Source: Prasinococcaceae sp. CCMP 1430 (lineage: Eukaryota; Prasinodermophyta; Palmophyllophyceae; Prasinococcales; Prasinococcaceae). Taken from it: a DNA stretch of 23,494 nt. Of the stretch, positions 871 to 17,952 are shown piece by piece; positions within the stretch are counted from its first letter, which is position 1, and each line of letters begins with the position of its first letter. The notes beneath the pieces were generated by a model. That model was not told where the DNA came from, searched no databases, and saw nothing but the letters and a program-made list of their open reading frames with translations. The position numbers were made by a program, and so were the translations under genes. Where the stretch lies: assembly GCA_013416795.1 (NCBI GenBank), contig RQSC01000189.1:1-23494 (forward strand), given 5' to 3'.

Positions 871-2135
871 CTAGCGCGTCGGCGGCGGCACGTGCGTGCC
901 CACCCACCCCTCCGGCAGCCTCCCCGTCGCCTCGTACGCCGCGTGCACCTCGCCGCGCACCGCCGCGCCGAAGTGCGGCGTGCCCACGCGGCACACGAGC
1001 ACGTGCGCGCCGGCGCGCGCGGCCTCAGGCGGTGCAGCGCGGCGCCCGCGGGCCCCCGCGCCGCCCGGACGGCGTCTTTGCCCTCCTCGCGACGAGGCGC
1101 GCCGTTGCTGCCGGTCCTCTGCAGCCGCGCGAGCGCCCCCGCTGTGTGTGTGGGCGCGCCCTCCGGCGACCAGCTCGCGCGCTCCCGCCCGCCGAAGAGT
1201 GCGCCCGCGTCGCTGCCTGATGACGAGCCCAGGCTGCTCGAGACGCTGCCGCTGCCCCCATGAGTAGCGGCTGCATGGTTCTCGCCCTCCCCGGCGCCCC
1301 TGTCGATGACGGCGCTGGCAGCGATCTGCTCCCATGCGAGGTCCCACCCCCTCGCCTCACCCTCCGCGCAACCGCGCTCGGCGCCGCGCCCCCACTGGCA
1401 CCCGGTGGCCGCGCGGCCGCCGTCGTGGCGAGGCGACGTCGGGGAGAGCAGCAGGTCGCTCGGGAGCGCGCGCGAGAGCTCGTCGACGTCGGCGTCGACG
1501 TCGACGTCGACGCCCGCTCCGTCGCTGTCGGCGACGCACCCCGGGCCGTCGCTGGGCGGTGGGCCGCTCATCACCGGTGCTGTGGAGGCGTCGAGAAAAT
1601 AGTGGAGCGCTCCCATTAAAGTCCCACCCCGCCCGCCCCGACCGCCGCCTCCGATGTGACCGCGTCGGCGGCCTCGCCCTCCTCGCGCGGCTGGCTGGCG
1701 CGCCTGGGGGGGAGGAGGGGGGGCCACGTAGTCGGAGGGTACCTGGGTGGTGACAAAGGCGTGCGTGAGGAGCTCCTCGGCGGTGGGCCGTTCGCGCGGC
1801 TCGCGCCGCATGCACTGCCGCAGGAAGTCGCGCCCCTCGGGGCTCAGGCTGTCCGGCACGGGCGGCGGCGCCTTCGAGGACGCAATGTGGAAGAGCGCCG
1901 AAACCTGCGAGGTGTATTCGCAGAAGGGCGGCTTCCCTGTGGCCATCTCTATGATCGTGCACCCAACCGACCAGATGTCTGCGCTGGAGTTGTGGCCCGT
2001 CTGTTTGATCACCTCGGGCGCCATCCAGTAGGGCGTGCCCTTGATGCTGCGTGCCCCCTCTGCGAGCGTGGTGAGCGTCGCCAGCGACTTGGACGCACCG
2101 AAGTCTGCCAGCTTGACGAAGCCGCTGTTGTCCAC
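871..2135 (-). CDS. MAP3K/STE11-like protein kinase, 5'-truncated
   Basis: Serine/threonine kinase, C-lobe only. Reading from 2135 downward the protein shows, in order: the DFG motif in KLADFGASK, the activation segment [10 protein letters not shown] (APE motif), [20 protein letters not shown] (subdomain IX) and [13 protein letters not shown] (subdomain XI) near 1750. This pattern is typical of MEKK/NPK1-type MAP kinase kinase kinases, which phosphorylate MAP2Ks. The ATP-binding lobe and HRD catalytic loop, which should precede VDNSG, are absent: the sequence hits an N at 2136 and then repeats. After the kinase domain comes a low-complexity Ser/Gly/Asp-rich tail including a (GTCGAC)-based [10 protein letters not shown] run near 1490-1515. 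The last coding part is uncertain. The kinase frame stays open into the GT repeat, but from about 1045 to a TAG at 871 a different frame reads much more like protein ([20 protein letters not shown]), so a terminal exon in that frame is likely. A possible short intron begins near 1745 (CAG|GTACCC, pyrimidine-rich, CCCAG). Confidence 0.8.
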
Positions 2136-2195
2136 NCCGATCCGCCGGATCGGCGCCGAGCCGCTTCTCCGCAGGGCTGGATCGGCGCCGAGCCG
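2136..2195. other. Ambiguous base and adjacent duplicated 17-mer
   Basis: Position 2136 is N. Immediately after it CCGATCC-GCC-GGATCGG forms a 7-bp inverted repeat, and GGATCGGCGCCGAGCCG occurs twice (2147-2163 and 2179-2195). The kinase reading frame is lost exactly here, so this is best read as an assembly join or collapsed gap. Confidence 0.75.
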
Positions 2196-4242: not shown

Positions 4243-5068
4243 GGCGCCCGGCGGCGCCCAATTTGCGACAGTGTCTGTCGTCAGCACCGGTCAGATGCCC
4301 ATGCGTCCTCGCTTCGCGGGAACGGCGGAATCCGTGGGACCGCGCACGCGCGCGCAGCGCTGCCAGTCAATTCCCGCGTCCAACGCCCCCTTTCGAAACT
4401 CGCTCGGCCATGTGCGTGTGCCGCGAAACAAACCAAAGTTACAGTAGACCACCTGGTACCAAAGGCCCAGCCATGCAAGACCAATGGCCACCGCCAATGC
4501 CCGCGAACACTGGCATGCATTCCCACGCATCAACACGCGCGTGCATGGCACTGCGCGCGTGCACGTATGACAACGCCAGGTCATCCCAGCGCGAGCATGC
4601 GCACTCGGCCCAGCGTGGCGCCCACCGCGCTGCCGGTGCGCACGGGGGCCACGCACGCGTTCGGGTTGGGGTACGGGGACATGTTCTTGTCAACGGATCG
4701 CCCTCTGCTGCTGCGCGGCGGTGCATGCCTGCTCCACCGTCGCCGCCGGCGCGGAGAGGTGAATGCCGTGCGCGCCGGCGCCAGGAAGAGTGGGGCGCGG
4801 GGGCGGCGGGAGGGGGGGGCGGAGCCTACTGTGAGGAATTCGAAGGAGGAGGCCCTGGGCCCGGGGCGGGGGCAGGCGCCGGCGACGGGGCGCTTGGGCT
4901 GGTGCCGTTGCTCACGCCGAGGCATGTGAATACAGTGTTGCCCGGCAGCTGCGCGCGTTGCAAATGCATGTTGTCGTGTGAGCATGTAGTGAGCGAGGTG
5001 CGGCATGTCAGTCGCGTCAAGCGTCGGCGAAGCAAGCCCATCGCGTGCCAGTGCGCAGTCTCCACTCT
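4243..5068. other. Intergenic region, possible unassigned minus-strand exon
   Basis: Upstream of the TPR gene and downstream of the secreted Cys-rich gene. Most of it shows no coding character. One piece on the minus strand, about 4581-4690 and ending at a TGA, reads KNMSPYPNPNACVAPVRTGS and on to a stop. It looks less random than its surroundings, but I cannot attach it to a start codon or splice sites. A poly-G stretch lies around 4811-4819. Confidence 0.45.
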
Positions 5069-5740
5069 CTAGAGGCACAAGCTCGCGTCGCGACGACGCA
5101 CACCCATGCACTGCGAGTTGGCTGCATCGCAGGCCTGATTGCACACTCCATTGATGAGATCGTTTGGTCCTCCGAGGAAAAGATGGATGGTGGCGGTCTG
5201 GACATCGCCGAACGGCGCCCCGTCCTGACCAAGGGCCGCCGGATCCACGCCATCGCAGGTCGCGGCGCACAGCGGGCCCTGCACCGAGGCGGCTGACACG
5301 CAGGTAGTGGTTGGCACCTCTCCCCATATGCACAGGCCCGACGCGATGTCCTCGTTGCCTGGAAGCCGTCGGTGGGCGGGGAGGAATGCCGTGCGTATGC
5401 ACGCCCTGGCGAGTCAGCCGTTGCGCGTGCAGCGTACTGAGCCTAGGATTTCGTATTGCAGGCAGGCGCGTGCGTGTGTTGTGTTTGCGCGCGGAGGCTC
5501 GCTCGCTCGCTCACCCTGGCAGACGGCCTGGGCGATGTCCGTGCTACAGCCGGCGTCGTCGCCGGGCACGTTGATGTTGACTGGCGAGCCCGCGCTGACG
5601 TATCCGTATAGCGATCCGGGCGGCACGGAACACGTCGCCTTGCACACGGTGCCCACCTCTGCGGGGATAAGGGACGCCCCTGCGCCTGCGGGTAGACGCA
5701 GCGCCGCGGCGCAGGACGCCAGCAGCAGCACCGCACGCAT
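5069..5740 (-). CDS. Small secreted cysteine-rich protein (two exons)
   Basis: Exon 1 is 5740-5515 and exon 2 is 5358-5069. The intron (156 nt) begins GTGAGCGAGC and ends CTTCCAG, phase 1, and joins AVCQ to GNEDIASGLC. The product is 171 residues. It starts with a classic signal peptide (MRAVLLLASCAAALRLPAGAG), so the protein enters the secretory pathway. The mature chain carries many cysteines arranged as two similar halves: VCKATC ... AVC in the first and LCAATC ... GVC in the second, suggesting an internal duplication with disulphide bonds. There is no membrane anchor at the C-terminus (RRRDASLCL). I do not recognise the family. The ATG at 5740 is preferred because the signal peptide begins there; the frame is open further upstream (an ATG at 6012 is in frame), but that extension is Arg/Ser-rich and would bury the signal. 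It lies downstream of the shared leader element at 5985-6240. Confidence 0.7.
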
Positions 5741-6114
5741 GGCCAGCGGTGGCTGCCCGCTGTCGATCGATCTGTGCTTGTAGTACCTCTTCCCGCCGCG
5801 CCGACTCGTCGCGCGAGGAGCGCGCGAAGGAGGATTGATGCGCGAGCGGGACGGCCGTGTGGCACTGGCAGAGGTGCCCTGACACGGCGCCACAGGTTCG
5901 TCAGGGCAAGCGTCGGTGGGTTTGCGCTGTGGCCGGCTGCGCCCCCACCACTGGCAGGCCACACACGCAGCGGACCGAGCGCCCGTCACGGGGCGCGTGG
6001 CCAGGCGCTCCATGATTGCACGCGAGACGCGCGCCGTCCAGCCCGCCGCGGAGGTGCCGTGTGAGTGGTCGGATGAGTGCGCCCGCCGGCCGCCAGTCCA
6101 CACAGGTCCCGACG

Positions 6115-6171
6115 TTACGCCAGTCGCCAGCCAGTGCCACTCAGCGCCCACTCATTGATTGCGATACGCAT
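6115..6171 (-). CDS. Upstream ORF in shared leader, copy 1
   Basis: ATG at 6171 to TAA at 6115 encodes MRIAINEWALSGTGWRLA. The same uORF in the other copy (8070-8014) differs by one conservative residue (Ile to Leu at position 5). A short overlapping uORF, MSGR, is also present. If transcription starts about 30 nt below the TATA box, this uORF lies in the 5' leader and could dampen translation of the main ORF. Whether it is translated is inference. Confidence 0.35.
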   Translation of the reverse strand: MRIAINEWALSGTGWRLA

Positions 6172-6183
6172 CGGTGATTTCCA

Positions 6184-6205
6184 GTACAGTACCTAGGTAC
6201 TGTAC
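6184..6205. repeat. 22-bp perfect palindrome
   Basis: GTACAGTACCT followed by its exact reverse complement. It is present only in copy 1 of the shared element and looks like an insertion of about 20 bp relative to copy 2. It sits near the predicted transcription start of the Cys-rich gene. It could be a dimeric protein-binding site or the footprint of an excised element. Confidence 0.85.
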
Positions 6206-6224
6206 GTTCGCACGGGTAAAGGGG

Positions 6225-6231
6225 TTATATA
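6225..6231 (-). promoter_or_regulatory. TATA-like box (TATATAA)
   Basis: Reads TATATAA on the minus strand, about 490 bp above the secreted Cys-rich start codon and aligned with the TATAAAA of the second copy. Both are followed upstream by the same CACAAAACC motif. Functional assignment is inference from position and conservation. Confidence 0.5.
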
Positions 6232-6240
6232 GGTTTTGTG

Positions 6241-6573
6241 TATTTGCGCGTCGAACGCGGCTGCGCGTCCGGGAGCGGGAGATGGGGAAGACTCGCTCGT
6301 CAGTCGACGCCCATGCTGCGCCGTAGGTTGGGCGGTTGGAGCGCATCTCGAGTTCTCGACCAACAGCGTGGCTCATGAGTCCCAAGAGCGTCGCAAAGGC
6401 CGCCCGTGGACACCCTCCCGCGTGAGCTCGAGGGACAGCTGGAGAACAGACAGGGTGTATATAGCCGGCTAGCTGATGCACGCCGACGCGCGACGCCAGG
6501 GCGCTCTTCGTTGATGAGAGATAGAGAGAGAGACGGGTCGGTAACAAAGCGCGTGGATCATACAGAGCGCGTG
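6241..6573. other. Intergenic region below the LRR gene
   Basis: 3' flank of the LRR gene running into the upstream side of copy 1. It holds a short GA microsatellite (GATAGAGAGAGAGAC near 6522-6535) and a TATATAGCCGGCTAGCT patch near 6460-6475. No coding sequence was identified. Confidence 0.55.
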
Positions 6574-7623
6574 TCAAATCTCTTGGGGCGCAGGGCGCGG
6601 GGCCTGTCCACACACGTAGTTGCCGGCGTCAGTGTCGGTGACCGTGTCCGGGATGCTTTCGGCGTACACGCAGAAGCCCGGGCCTTGGTCTGCCACGTAC
6701 ACATCGTCCAGGGCTGTGAGCGGAGAGAAGAGCTGTGGTGACTGTGGGCCGACGAGGCTATTGTTCGTAAAATCCAGCGACGCTAGCTCGTCGAGCCCTA
6801 CAAAGGCGTCGTCGTCGATCGAGCTGATGACATTGTCTGACAGGTCAAGTATATACAGTCCGCTAATGCCTGCAAACGCTCCGGGGCCAATGCTCGACAG
6901 GCGGTTATAGTCGAGCCGCAGGAAGAAGTCGATACCCGGCCCTCCCAGGTCCCGGAAGGGTGTCGGATCGAACGTGCCACTGAGCTCGTTGCCAGAGAGG
7001 AACAGGATCCGGAGGCTGGGGAGGCCGACGAACGCGTCTGGGTCAATGTCGGCGATGCTATTGTCCTCGAGTTCAAGTTCATCCAGGTTCGTCGCCCCGG
7101 CGAACGCGCCATAAGGAATGGACGTGATGTTGTTCCCGCGTAGAGAGAAGCTTTGGAGAGCGGTCATGCCCCAGAGAAGGTTGTTGGGAATTGACGCGAT
7201 GTGATTCTCGTTTATCTCGATGACCTCACACTTGTCGAGGCCATTGAAGACGCCCGGCTGAAAGCCGGTGAGCGAGCCGCCCTCCATGGCGAAGCCGCTG
7301 CACTTGTTGCCAAAGTCGCCGTCGTCGCCCTCAAAGCAGTTGCAGTCGCCCTCCCAAGGCGGCGGCTTGCGCGAGAGCAGGCCACCCTCGTTGTAAAACA
7401 TGCAGGACCCGCACTGAAATGAGAACCCCTCGCCATCATCGTAGTCGCTGGGGCCAGAGCCGACTTCGTCGTCGCCGATGACTACTTTTTTAACACTCTT
7501 ACCAGAGTCGCTTTCGCCAGGAGGGGGCTGGGAGGGCTCCTGCGCGACAGCAGGAGCAACAGCTGCCGCCACCGCTCCGATGGCGACGAGGCCGGCAGCG
7601 AGGGCGCGGGCGATGGGCGGCAT
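6574..7623 (-). CDS. Secreted leucine-rich-repeat protein
   Basis: 349 residues, no intron needed. Residues 1-27 are a signal peptide with an AVA-QE cleavage site. Next comes an acidic linker (about 35-65) and a Cys-rich cap (about 70-130) with QCGSC, CNC and NKC motifs. From about 125 to 310 there are LRRs of exactly 24 residues of the typical extracellular type, for example ITSIPYGAFAGATNLDELEL, IADIDPDAFVGLPSLRILFL, LSSIGPGAFAGISGLYILDL and ISSIDDDAFVGLDELASLDF. A Cys-containing C-terminal segment (FCVYAESIPD ... NYVCGQ) closes the solenoid. There is no transmembrane helix, kinase or GPI-like tail, so it is probably secreted or wall-associated and binds protein or glycan ligands; the ligand is unknown. 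The ATG at 7623 is chosen because the signal peptide starts there. Its upstream region contains the second copy of the shared leader. Confidence 0.88.
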   Translation of the reverse strand: MPPIARALAAGLVAIGAVAAAVAPAVAQEPSQPPPGESDSGKSVKKVVIGDDEVGSGPSDYDDGEGFSFQCGSCMFYNEGGLLSRKPPPWEGDCNCFEGDDGDFGNKCSGFAMEGGSLTGFQPGVFNGLDKCEVIEINENHIASIPNNLLWGMTALQSFSLRGNNITSIPYGAFAGATNLDELELEDNSIADIDPDAFVGLPSLRILFLSGNELSGTFDPTPFRDLGGPGIDFFLRLDYNRLSSIGPGAFAGISGLYILDLSDNVISSIDDDAFVGLDELASLDFTNNSLVGPQSPQLFSPLTALDDVYVADQGPGFCVYAESIPDTVTDTDAGNYVCGQAPRPAPQEI

Positions 7624-7883
7624 GCTCGCTCCGTCGTCCTAGCTAGCAGGATTGCAGGAGGTGCAACTCGGACCGTATGATCTGAAAGGGCGCCGCGTTC
7701 ACCGCGCCACGCTGCACGTAGTAATAAGCGCTGGGGAAGGGGGGGGGGGGGGGCAGTGTGGTGCAGTGCGCTGCGCACTCGCTCCCACACCGCGCGACAG
7801 GAGCAAGCAAGGGAGGGCGCCATCGCAGCAGCCACGCGCACGCACACGCTGATACGTGCTATATACGCGTAGATAGACGCACG
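7624..7883. other. Gene-specific part of LRR leader, with poly-G run
   Basis: Between the LRR start codon and the shared element. It contains an uninterrupted G15 run at 7739-7753 (C15 on the transcribed sense strand). It is not similar to the corresponding 5741-5984 stretch of the other gene, which shows where the duplication ends. Confidence 0.6.
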
Positions 7884-8013
7884 GTCACGGGGCGCGTGGC
7901 CAGGCGCTCCATGATTGCACGCGCGACGCGCGCCGTCCAGCCCGCCGCGGAGGTGCCGTGTGAGTGGTCGGATGAGTGCGCCCGCCGGCCGCCAGTCCAC
8001 ACAGGTCCCGACG

Positions 8014-8070
8014 TTACGCCAGTCGCCAGCCAGTGCCACTCAGCGCCCACTCATTGAGTGCGATACGCAT
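8014..8070 (-). CDS. Upstream ORF in shared leader, copy 2
   Basis: ATG at 8070 to TAA at 8014 encodes MRIALNEWALSGTGWRLA, one residue different from the copy-1 uORF. Conservation may simply reflect recent duplication, because the whole 201-bp block has only three changes. Confidence 0.35.
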   Translation of the reverse strand: MRIALNEWALSGTGWRLA

Positions 8071-8097
8071 CGGTGACTTCCAGTGCGCTCGCACGGG

Positions 8098-8122
8098 TTA
8101 GGGTTTCGTTTCGGGTTTTATA
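8098..8122 (-). promoter_or_regulatory. TATA box plus telo-box of the LRR promoter
   Basis: On the minus strand TATAAAA (8116-8122) is followed about 10 nt downstream by AAACCCTAA (8098-8106). AAACCCTAA is the plant telo-box motif, known near transcription starts of highly expressed genes in plants; its role here is inference. Copy 1 keeps the TATA-like box but not the telo-box. Confidence 0.5.
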
Positions 8123-8225
8123 GAGGTTTTGTGGTCGCCCGTGGGTGTACGCGATGTTTCAATTATCGTGCTGAACGATTCAGTAGTTTACGGTGTATCA
8201 TCGATCGAACATTTCCCCAAAAAGA

Positions 8226-9391
8226 ATGCAAATTCATATCACAAACGCGCGGAGAGCACTACGAAATGCGGGCCACACGCGCCGCGCCCCCTGCTGCCGC
8301 TGCTGCGGCCGCTGCTGCCGGGGCGGCCCGCCGCGCGATTCTTTTGGCGCGGAACCGCGGCCGCGCGGCAAGAAGTTCCGCAAGTTCAAGCAGGAGCTCG
8401 TGCCCGACGAGGCGCCGGCCGCGCCTGCCGCGCCCGCCGAGCGGCCGACGCAGGTGCTGGGGCAGAAGGTGGAGGAGGTGGTGCGTGGCGCGCCGCGATC
8501 CTTCGTGCGCGCCGCCCAGCGCTCGTGGCCCGCGTAGGCGGGCTGCACCGCGCCGCCGCTGTTCCGTCCCTCGCGGGCGCGCTGAGGGGCGCTCGCGCTC
8601 AGCACTTACACACTCGCGCGCACACAAACACACACACACACCGCCCGCGAACACACTCGGCGGCCCCGCGGTGCGCTGCGCGCCTGCCGCCGCCCCCGAA
8701 AACCCGCGCCAAACCGCAACACACTCCGCGATTTGGGTGCAATTTGGATATCACGCCGGTGTTTTACGGGCCCGAAATGAAGAACCGCAAACCCTTTCCG
8801 CGTCGCGTGGATAAGGAAGGGCGTCTGCAGGTGGCGGCCCCGCGCGAGTGCGCCGCGCCTGCGCGCGCGCCGTTCGACCCGGCCCTCCCCTCCGCGCGCC
8901 CTCGCGCCTGGTGCTGACCCGGGACCGCTCCTGCTGCGCCGCGCGATCGCGCCGCGCGCGCCGCTGCCCGCCGCCGGCGCCGCCGCTGCGCATGGTCATC
9001 CCGCAGTTCACGGCGGTGCCGGGCGTGAAGTCCATCTACCAGTACAGCGCGGACGAGCCCAACCCGTTCGAGTTCGTCAAGCCCGACGATGAGTGGATCG
9101 ACGAGAAGTGCGTTCGCCGCGCGCCTGCCGTGCCCCCAGCCCGCCGCCGCGGCGCGCGTTCGGGAGCCGCACGCTGACCGCCGTGCCATTCGCGCCGTCG
9201 CGCTCCCTCTTCCGCAAAGGTTCAACGCGCTGGGCTGGTTTCTCGACAAGTACATCTACTTCGCGGCGGTGCTCGTTCTCATCACCGGCGGTGTAGCCGC
9301 CACCGCGTACAATGACGGCGCTGAGCAGTACGTGCCTCCCGGCGGTGACACGGGCGCCGGCGAGGAGATCGCGTCCAAGATGCTCTTCTGA
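8226..9391 (+). CDS. Small single-span membrane protein, four probable exons
   Basis: Proposed exons are 8226-8480, 8783-8830, 9007-9107 and 9220-9391. Introns are GTGCGT...ATGAAG, GTGGCG...CCGCAG and GTGCGT...AAAG. All phases agree and give 191 residues. The last junction (DDEWIDEK joined to FNALGWFLDKY) is the most secure. The C-terminal exon holds one transmembrane helix (YIYFAAVLVLITGGVAATAY) followed by a short tail (EEIASKMLF). The middle exons give FTAVPGVKSIYQYSADEPNP. The first exon contains GKKFRKFKQELVPDEAP and an Ala/Pro-rich segment after an Arg-rich N-terminus that could be an organelle presequence. I do not recognise the family; a thylakoid or mitochondrial inner membrane location is a guess. 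Alternatives are a start at the ATG at 8777 (MKNRKPFPRRVDKEGRLQ as first exon) or at 8992. The intron holds a CA-rich patch (8620-8641). Confidence 0.55.
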
Positions 9392-15517: not shown

Positions 15518-17610
15518 TTACTTGGAGCTGTCCTCCGCCGGCTTGGAGGCTGAACCTTCGCCCACGGCTGGTGTGCCATTCTTGAGTGGCTGTTTCGTAG
15601 TGGATGCTTCCGCTTTCGCGGCGTCCTCTGCATCGCGCTTCTCCTGCACGTACTTGGGGATCTCCCAGCGGCCTTCGCCAAGCAGGAAGACGGCGCCCGC
15701 CTGCTGCAGTGCGATGACGTCGTCACAGTACTCGTCATTGCACTCGTTCAACACCTCCTCCGGGTCGTGCTTCTCGAGCATCATGTCCCACACCTCGGGG
15801 AGCGCAGTGCCTGTCACAGTCAGCTTGTTGCTTTCCTGGAAAGTCTTGAGCGCGTTCTCGGTCGAGTCGCCGAATTGCCACCACTCCATGTCCTCGTCGC
15901 CGCAGAAGAAACCCTCCCTCGCGAGAACCAGCTGCAGGTAGCGAACACTCACGCCGCCATCGCCGTACATGAGCATTTGGCGCTTGACGGTTTCGCTGGC
16001 ACTCGTCGTGCTCGTGCTTTTCGAGGCACTGGCATCATCCTTGGATTCCTTCGTCGACACGGTCGCGGTCTTCTCCTTCGTGGTGGCGGTGGTGGTGGTT
16101 GTCACGCTCGCGCTGGCGACGGGGCGGGGTGGCGTCACCGGCGTGGTGCTGTCCTTCTCAGACGCCTTGTCGTCGTCTCGTTTGCTCGCCCCATCCGCGT
16201 CTTTCGGCTTGTCCGCCTCCCCCTTCGCTGCCTCGACGGGTCCCAGCAGTGCCTCCCACGTGGGCGCGTCGGCAATGCCCGTCTCCTCGAGCCCGTTACA
16301 CGCTTGGTAGAAGAAGAGCGCTTCCTGCGTACCGCCCTGGAAGAGCCACTCCTCCATGTCCTCGTCACCGGGATGGAATCCCGCGTCGTCGAGTGCCTTG
16401 TGCAGAGTGGCCATCCACTTGATGTCATCGGCGCCCATGCTCAGCACGGGCCTCTCGCCGGGCGGGATATCACCCACCGGGTTGAACTCGACGGGCAGGT
16501 CGCTCTTTGGTGCCGATGCGGGCGCCTCGCCAGCGCCCGCGAGAGCGCCTAGCGGGTCCTTGGCGGCGGCCTTGGCGGGCGTCGCGGGCTCGCCGGCAGG
16601 AGCCTCGTCGAAGAGCGGATCGTAGGGCACTTCTTCTTCGTCCTTCCGCTCCTTCTGCTCCGCCTTCTCCTGCTCTTCCTCCACGGTGTCCGCAGCCTGA
16701 GGCTGAAAGCTCGCCTTCACCTGCTTGTCCTCGCCATCGGAGTCGTATGCGGAGACATCGACGGCTGGCGGCTCGATTTGCGGCGGCGGGCCCTGCCGTG
16801 GCTCTGGCATGGCCACGAGCTTCGACTGCGTCAGCCTTAGCGCCGACACGAGCTCGCGGCGCATCTCGCTGAGCTCGTGCCTCAGAGAGCGCGCCTCGTC
16901 GAGGTGCTGCCGGCGCTCTTTGTTCCATTCGGCGCGCTCGCGCTCCCAGCTCTCCTCGCGCTTACGCCAGCTCGCCTCGATCTCCGCGACGCGCTCCTCC
17001 ATGCGCGCGTCCTTGATTTCCATCATGCTCTCCTGCACCTCGACCACCTGCGCGAGCTCGCCCACGGCGTCGAGCGCCTGCTTGCGCTCGGCCTTCTTCT
17101 CGGCCTTCTTCTCGGCCTTCTTGTCCGCCTTCTTCTTGCGCACCGCCCGCGCGCGGGGCGCGCGTCGCTCGTACCCGGCCGGATCGGCCTTGGGGATGGC
17201 CATCGGCATGCCTCCCTGCGCCGACTGCGCCGACAGCGCCTTCATCGCCGCCACCGCCGCCGCCCGCTCTTGGCTCTTCGCTCGGCGCGCTCGGCGCGGC
17301 GCGTACGCACCTCGGTGGTGAGCGCGCGCAGGATGGCGGCCCGCCGCGAGCCGTGCACGGTGGCCATCACCTGCACGCGCGACGCCTGCACCTGCTGCGG
17401 CATCGCGTGCGCCGCGTAGTACGCCTGCTGCTGCGCGTGCGCGAACTGCAGCTGCTGCATGGCGAGCTGCTGCTGCTGCTGCTGCTGCTGCTGCGCCTGC
17501 TGCTGCTGCTGCTGCGCCTGCGCGGCCACCGCCTGCTGCGTCTGCGCGGCGGCGGCGCCCGCCACGGCGGCTTGCGACGCCGCGAACCCGGCCTGCGGCA
17601 CCGCGGCCAA
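15518..17610 (-). CDS. Gln-rich/coiled-coil protein with two peptidoglycan-binding-like domains
   Basis: From the TAA at 15518 the frame is continuous back to about 17275 (586 codons). It has a Lys-rich charged region (KKKADKKAEKKAEKKAERK), a coiled coil (VAEIEASWRKREESWERERA), an acidic linker, and two related helical domains: one near 16240-16410 (GFHPGDEDMEEWLF...QEALFFYQ) and one near 15775-15950 (GFFCGDEDMEWWQF...NALKTFQ). They are separated by a Ser/Thr/Lys linker. The domains fit the PG_binding_1 fold; plant plastid proteins of the PTAC5 type carry similar domains, so a plastid role is possible (recalled, not searched). Upstream, a second frame (about 17610-17312) encodes poly-Gln and QQAYYAAHAMPQQVQASRVQ. 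It can be joined in phase 0 by an intron starting GTGCGT at 17310 and ending at AAG (17276) or GAG (17267), only 35-44 nt long; a sequence indel is the alternative. The 5' end is not fixed. The first ATG in the Gln frame is at 17460. Confidence 0.75.
17467..17514 (-). repeat. (CAG)n trinucleotide repeat encoding poly-Gln
   Basis: CTG x9 at 17467-17493, a CGC interruption, then CTG x6 at 17497-17514 on the plus strand. On the minus strand this reads as Gln6-Ala-Gln9. Tracts of this kind vary in length between alleles. Confidence 0.95.
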
Positions 17611-17952
17611 TCATGTGGTCCGCCCTCGTGGGCATGACGGCCCTCCCCTGGCCCGCACGAGGGTGCGCATCGCGCGCACACCACCAACGCCGCCGCGGCG
17701 TTTTCCGCATGCGTTTTGACCTGCGGGGCGCAGAGATATCGTTTATCTCGGCGCGCGGGAAAATATCGCGAGTTGATGGCCCTATGAACGAATGGTGAAT
17801 GATGAATGAATGCGGTTGATCTGTTGGTGATGACTGACTGCTGCGGTTGGGACGTGTTGGGAGTGAGCTGGAGCTGCTGTGATGTGCTTTGCTTTGGGGT
17901 GAAGGCGGGTGCGCGCGCTCGCCACAGGGCGCGCGGGAGGGGTGCGGCCTCG

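Follow-up and report, generated by a model that had tools for sequence, protein, structure and literature searches.

Two adjacent, unrelated genes on the minus strand of the stretch analysed here (the window: 23,494 nucleotides, the whole of contig C61 in a 24.5-Mb assembly of 145 contigs) are preceded by near-identical 201-bp blocks and by promoter-side homology that reaches a TATA box. The best explanation, to which we give a probability of roughly 55%, is a local duplication of promoter and leader, with the leader later homogenised by short-range gene conversion. Under this explanation an old local duplication of ~250 bp would have copied a TATA core promoter together with the first ~200 nt of the 5′ leader, leaving the duplicate before two genes of the same strand, gene B and then gene A. 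Later, the 201-bp leader would have been overwritten from one copy to the other. That the duplication is old is what we infer. The genes and the two blocks are as follows.

5985..6185, minus strand: block A, leader copy upstream of gene A, identical to block B at 198/201 positions
7884..8084, minus strand: block B, leader copy upstream of the LRR gene, identical to block A at 198/201 positions
5515..5740, minus strand: gene A coding exon from MRAV, Cys-rich with a hydrophobic N-terminus; the spliced product equals P0016 exactly
5359..5514, minus strand: gene A intron, 156 nt, GT-AG, as required by the spliced product P0016
5069..5358, minus strand: last coding exon of gene A, stop included, also part of the spliced product P0016
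6574..7623, minus strand: gene B, LRR protein of 349 aa in a single ORF (LRR_8, 134 bits; relatives P0001 and P0002)

The LRR protein has metagenome relatives, P0001 and P0002, at 77-80% identity, and its matches elsewhere in the assembly are at most 40% identical. No paralogue of gene A was found in the assembly. The two proteins gave no BLASTP match to each other at E<=10, and the gene-proximal leaders of A and B are unrelated, since 1534 of 5000 random genome stretches scored equally well. The earlier note had described both the coding regions and these leaders as unrelated, which is borne out here. Both proteins carry a hydrophobic N-terminus, the sole feature by which we class them as probably secreted. 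Elsewhere in the window, a 730-aa ORF (15521-17710, minus strand) contains two PG_binding_1 (peptidoglycan-binding) domains, which are unusual in a eukaryote.

Blocks A and B align with zero gaps, and the three mismatches are 6025 A/C, 6159 T/G and 6178 T/C. At the local base composition, the probability of at least 198/201 matching positions is ~1e-103 per comparison, and chance is therefore excluded. The window has 15 listed direct-repeat families, in which the two blocks form the sole pair of more than 100 nt; most of the remaining families consist of CA/TG or GCN repeats or of short pairs that match by chance, with one short in-gene repeat. The start codons on the minus strand, at 5740 (gene A) and 7623 (gene B), are separated from the block edges by 245 and 261 bp. 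A 201-bp repeat with three mismatches and near-equal distances to the start codons had both been claimed in the earlier note, and both claims hold. Other local direct repeats with a length of 100 bp or more and an identity of 90% or more gave 8 rows in 38 overlapping loci, representing ~4 distinct places elsewhere, so that local duplication is unremarkable in this genome. A search for DNA of relatives by exact 30-mers returned 0 matches in both viral_contigs and genome_contigs.

On the promoter side of the blocks the similarity continues with insertions and deletions, as the following features show.

6205..6240, minus strand: promoter-side homology of A, with TATATA at 6231-6226; aligned to 8086-8133 with a score of 32
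8086..8133, minus strand: promoter-side homology of B, with TATAAA at 8122-8117 and insertions of 10 and 2 bp relative to A; alignment score 32
6186..6203, no strand: 18-bp insert in A, missing from B; core of a perfect 22-bp palindrome that includes its flanks (6184-6205)

The alignment of 6205-6240 with 8086-8133 contains 4 substitutions and gaps of 10 and 2; an extra mismatch (6204 against 8085) lies just beyond the local alignment and was left out of the count. The score of 32 was reached by 2 of 5000 random genome stretches, drawn from 26 loci (89,427 bases) with a third copy of the block, copy C (see below), excluded. With copy C in the pool this became 11/3000, and 17/3000 when the palindrome was included. 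The indel-bearing similarity up to a TATA box in both copies, which had been proposed from the sequence, is thereby confirmed. A search of the 24.5-Mb assembly for the motif CAAAACCT-N0-4-TATA returned 4 places, A, B and C among them. The similarity between the A and B promoters is therefore homology, and a common core-promoter motif was ruled out as its source. The fourth place, on C51, gave local scores of 26-31 across its 3-kb locus; these scores are uncalibrated and, as far as seen, carry no sign of a diverged copy. The palindrome, GTACAGTACCTAGGTACTGTAC, lies near the putative transcription start of gene A and is without counterpart in B. In the assembly, exact matches to its 16-bp core are confined to A and C, with a one-mismatch match at C76:373572-373587, and a recurrent element was ruled out on this count.

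The leader is far less diverged than the adjoining promoter. The promoter shows 4 substitutions and 3 indels in 39 columns, compared to 3 changes in 201 columns of the leader, and it is from this difference that we infer conversion. The heterogeneity (7 events/39 against 3/201) gave a Fisher p of 1.5e-4, and p=0.011 from substitutions alone, counts that rest on a single gapped alignment picked post hoc. Of the three block mismatches, two fall in the 27 bp next to the promoter-side edge, as at the edge of a tract. The arrangement is thus that of a near-identical tract inside more diverged homology, with the homology on the promoter side only and none on the gene side. The main rival, which we regard as rather unlikely, is one recent duplication (or templated repair) of promoter and leader, after which indels, the 18-bp palindrome of A among them, would have altered the promoter rapidly; with a fast-changing promoter the picture would look similar. 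The collinearity of the homology over ~250 bp fits such a single event, as does the palindrome, because template switching can produce palindromic insertions. The uneven divergence of promoter and leader argues against it.

Transcription probably starts near the promoter-side edge of the block. Both mRNAs would then open with the same leader, including its three upstream ATGs, and continue into a gene-specific leader. The effect, if any, would be that the two genes share a core promoter and perhaps also control by upstream ORFs.

For gene A, two protein records were compared with the window. P0016 (source jgi, 262 aa, contig of 1437 bp, 2 member sequences) matches, residue for residue, the product of 6013-5069 minus the 156-nt GT-AG intron, and its first codon is the ATG at 6013, within block A. 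P0017 (source ena, 108 aa) begins at MRAV and represents the unspliced form. As a predicted protein, P0016 may come from a contig of genomic DNA on which a spliced gene was modelled, but the splicing suggests cDNA. If the contig is cDNA, the gene A transcript covers the final 29 nt of the block or more and runs unspliced through to the coding region. Because P0016 starts inside block A, the gene A transcript would include the gene-proximal end of the block, provided that P0016 represents a transcript. By the earlier note's own standard, its reading would fail if both genes were transcribed from starts downstream of the block; as far as P0016 represents a transcript, its start at 6013 contradicts this for gene A.

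The extension from 6013 to 5741 has a GC1/2/3 of 0.64/0.74/0.77. This composition is unlike that of local coding DNA (GC2 of 0.46-0.61 in four measured coding stretches) and like that of the B leader (GC1/2/3 of 0.59/0.74/0.66), and therefore 6013-5741 is probably an untranslated leader and not coding. A shared coding exon was rejected as an explanation of the repeat: on the minus strand, block plus promoter is interrupted by a stop in each of the three frames, and the in-frame extension of gene A does not have the composition of coding DNA. Each block copy contains three upstream ATGs, at matching places in A and B. The second opens an ORF of 4 codons in both blocks, and the other two are listed here.

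6118..6171, minus strand: upstream ORF of 18 codons plus stop in block A; the B counterpart starts at 8070 and differs in one residue, I to L
6011..6013, minus strand: third upstream ATG of block A, in frame with gene A and coding for the first residue of P0016; the B counterpart at 7912 opens a 17-codon ORF

On this anatomy, shared control of A and B is plausible, and translational control based on upstream ORFs and common to both genes is possible. It is improbable, in our view, that the leader is so similar because it stands under strong sequence constraint (a shared upstream-ORF or RNA control) while its surroundings diverged. The co-located upstream ATGs and the one conservative residue change in the 18-codon ORF would agree with such constraint, but 98.5% identity across an entire 201-nt non-coding stretch is more than upstream ORFs need. 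Constraint on RNA structure finds no support either, as the blocks fold no better than shuffled sequences (z of +1.16 and +1.22; for each block, 179 of 200 shuffles fold at least as well) and Rfam gave no match up to E=1 in window 5000-8700. With no tRNA found in addition, a structured RNA was rejected as a reading of the block.

The genome-wide search for the block proposed in the earlier note returned 3 places in the 24.5-Mb assembly, a lower bound and too few to show a relation to gene starts. Queries of 1 kb around each block added one further match, 38 bp on C11 and outside the block; these counts are lower bounds as well. The third place is copy C.

6050..6603, no strand: stretch repeated as copy C at C75:896658-897211, 554/554 identical, adjoining a single N

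Copy C starts directly after the single N (C75:896657) and lies between two divergent ORFs on C75. It ends 22 bp before the ATG of a MUS81-like ORF (ERCC4 domain); for the ORF that flanks it on the opposite side, Pfam gave no match. The last nine codons and the stop of the LRR gene are present in copy C. The protein end CGQAPRPAPQ is common to P0001 and P0002, which indicates that this end sequence is native to the LRR gene and hence that copy C derives from locus A.

Single Ns were found at 6 distinct positions in 56 records (220,392 bases, overlaps counted twice). Five were tested, including that of copy C, and all five adjoin an exact or near-exact copy from elsewhere; the sixth lies on C15 (L042 position 1795). 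The other four tested are the following.

Window 2136: 436-bp copy with 1 mismatch, a kinase fragment with a longer copy on C75
C75:894752: 233-bp copy, from C54
C75:902860: copy of at least 467 bp, on C96 and C24
C51:151875: 52-bp copy, from C73

Stray copies adjoin all five tested Ns, and copy C, which is exact, terminates at a join of the assembly; it is therefore probably a copy of locus A that arose at an assembly edge. Real repeats can likewise cause an assembler to break, so that stray copies at joins are not proof of an artefact. Against a pure artefact also stands C75:894058-894612, a near-exact copy of C1 sequence (555 bp, 1 mismatch) with no adjoining N. This copy (L004 1359-1913) is inverted relative to C1:152051-152605, and segments of it fall into a repeat family that has 47 matches in the assembly, query included; these are short repeat elements, possibly intron-like or transposable. 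Another repeat family, at C75:902180-902860, C96:210097-210917 and C24:3067-3829, consists of exact copies on three contigs with internal tandem-like copies; on C75 it stops at a single N.

In this assembly, single Ns indicate joins that have stray copies beside them, and other apparently duplicated segments beside a single N therefore deserve distrust, including the kinase fragment at 1700-2135. This 436-bp fragment of a kinase gene (window 1700-2136) ends exactly at the N at 2136 and differs by 1 mismatch from C75:226438-226873, where the kinase frame continues. It has a Pkinase match in Pfam, and we take it to be of the MAPKKK type; together with the introns, it marks the DNA as eukaryotic. 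Against PDB chains, the IF-2 and small membrane-protein sequences gave no species-level match. The left part of this contig may be mis-joined.

Copy C would have another meaning if repeat, LRR gene, repeat and gene A together formed a recombination cassette. A crossover between the repeats would excise the LRR gene as a circle and place gene A behind the other promoter, and two unrelated secreted proteins would thus alternate behind one leader bearing upstream ORFs. Copy C contains both the LRR end and the A promoter, and on this reading it would be a fragment of the product that had reinserted, and not an assembly error. We hold this to be slightly less probable still than constraint on the leader.

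The earlier note had also considered a mobile cassette beside promoter exchange by gene conversion. What stands of that reading is a promoter and leader common to two unrelated neighbours, for which gene conversion fits best; the mobile cassette is not supported. That the block is a mobile or captured regulatory element inserting upstream of genes would agree with a third place on another contig between divergent ORFs. However, such elements would show many dispersed copies with the same ends, and the block has 3 places in 24.5 Mb (a lower bound) whose extents differ. No terminal inverted repeat was found in the 40-bp ends of either block (the longest exact inverted match between the ends is 4 bp in A, with none of at least 4 bp in B), and the third copy carries the LRR coding end, adjoins an N and is probably an assembly-edge copy. 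We consider this reading very improbable. Equally improbable is that copy B itself is an assembly error. Stray copies at single Ns do exist, one of them within the window at 2136, but an N is present at none of the edges of A and B, 3 positions of B differ from A, and, as assembled, B runs on into a diverged homologous promoter, which would not be expected of a pasted copy.

If promoter and leader are indeed shared through conversion, the two genes would offer a clean natural case of co-regulation evolving between unrelated proteins, with conversion confined to a non-coding tract.

Copy C resembles the false duplications in genome assemblies treated in PMC9516828, being exact and at a single-N join like the 4 other tested Ns. 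Such false duplication would account for copy C, but not for A versus B. A leader placed before different proteins also recalls the UCS of the Pneumocystis MSG expression site, where one upstream leader starts the mRNAs of different surface proteins. According to PMC2743713, the UCS is single-copy and serves one family of ~80-90 related donor genes through a 24-bp junction element, whereas A and B are two fixed copies before two unrelated genes, of which gene A is without paralogue in the assembly. A shared leader for interchangeable related genes is thus not what we found here: the A and B proteins are unrelated, gene A has no paralogue in the assembly, and matches of the LRR protein elsewhere are at most 40% identical.

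The closest likeness is to interlocus (ectopic) gene conversion, which reportedly occurs between neighbouring duplicates, upstream regions included, for instance in primate globin genes, the subject of PMC4390247. As there, a short near-identical tract lies within older, more diverged homology of neighbouring loci. In contrast to conversion of the globin type, the genes downstream of the A and B copies are unrelated, so that only promoter and leader would be open to conversion.
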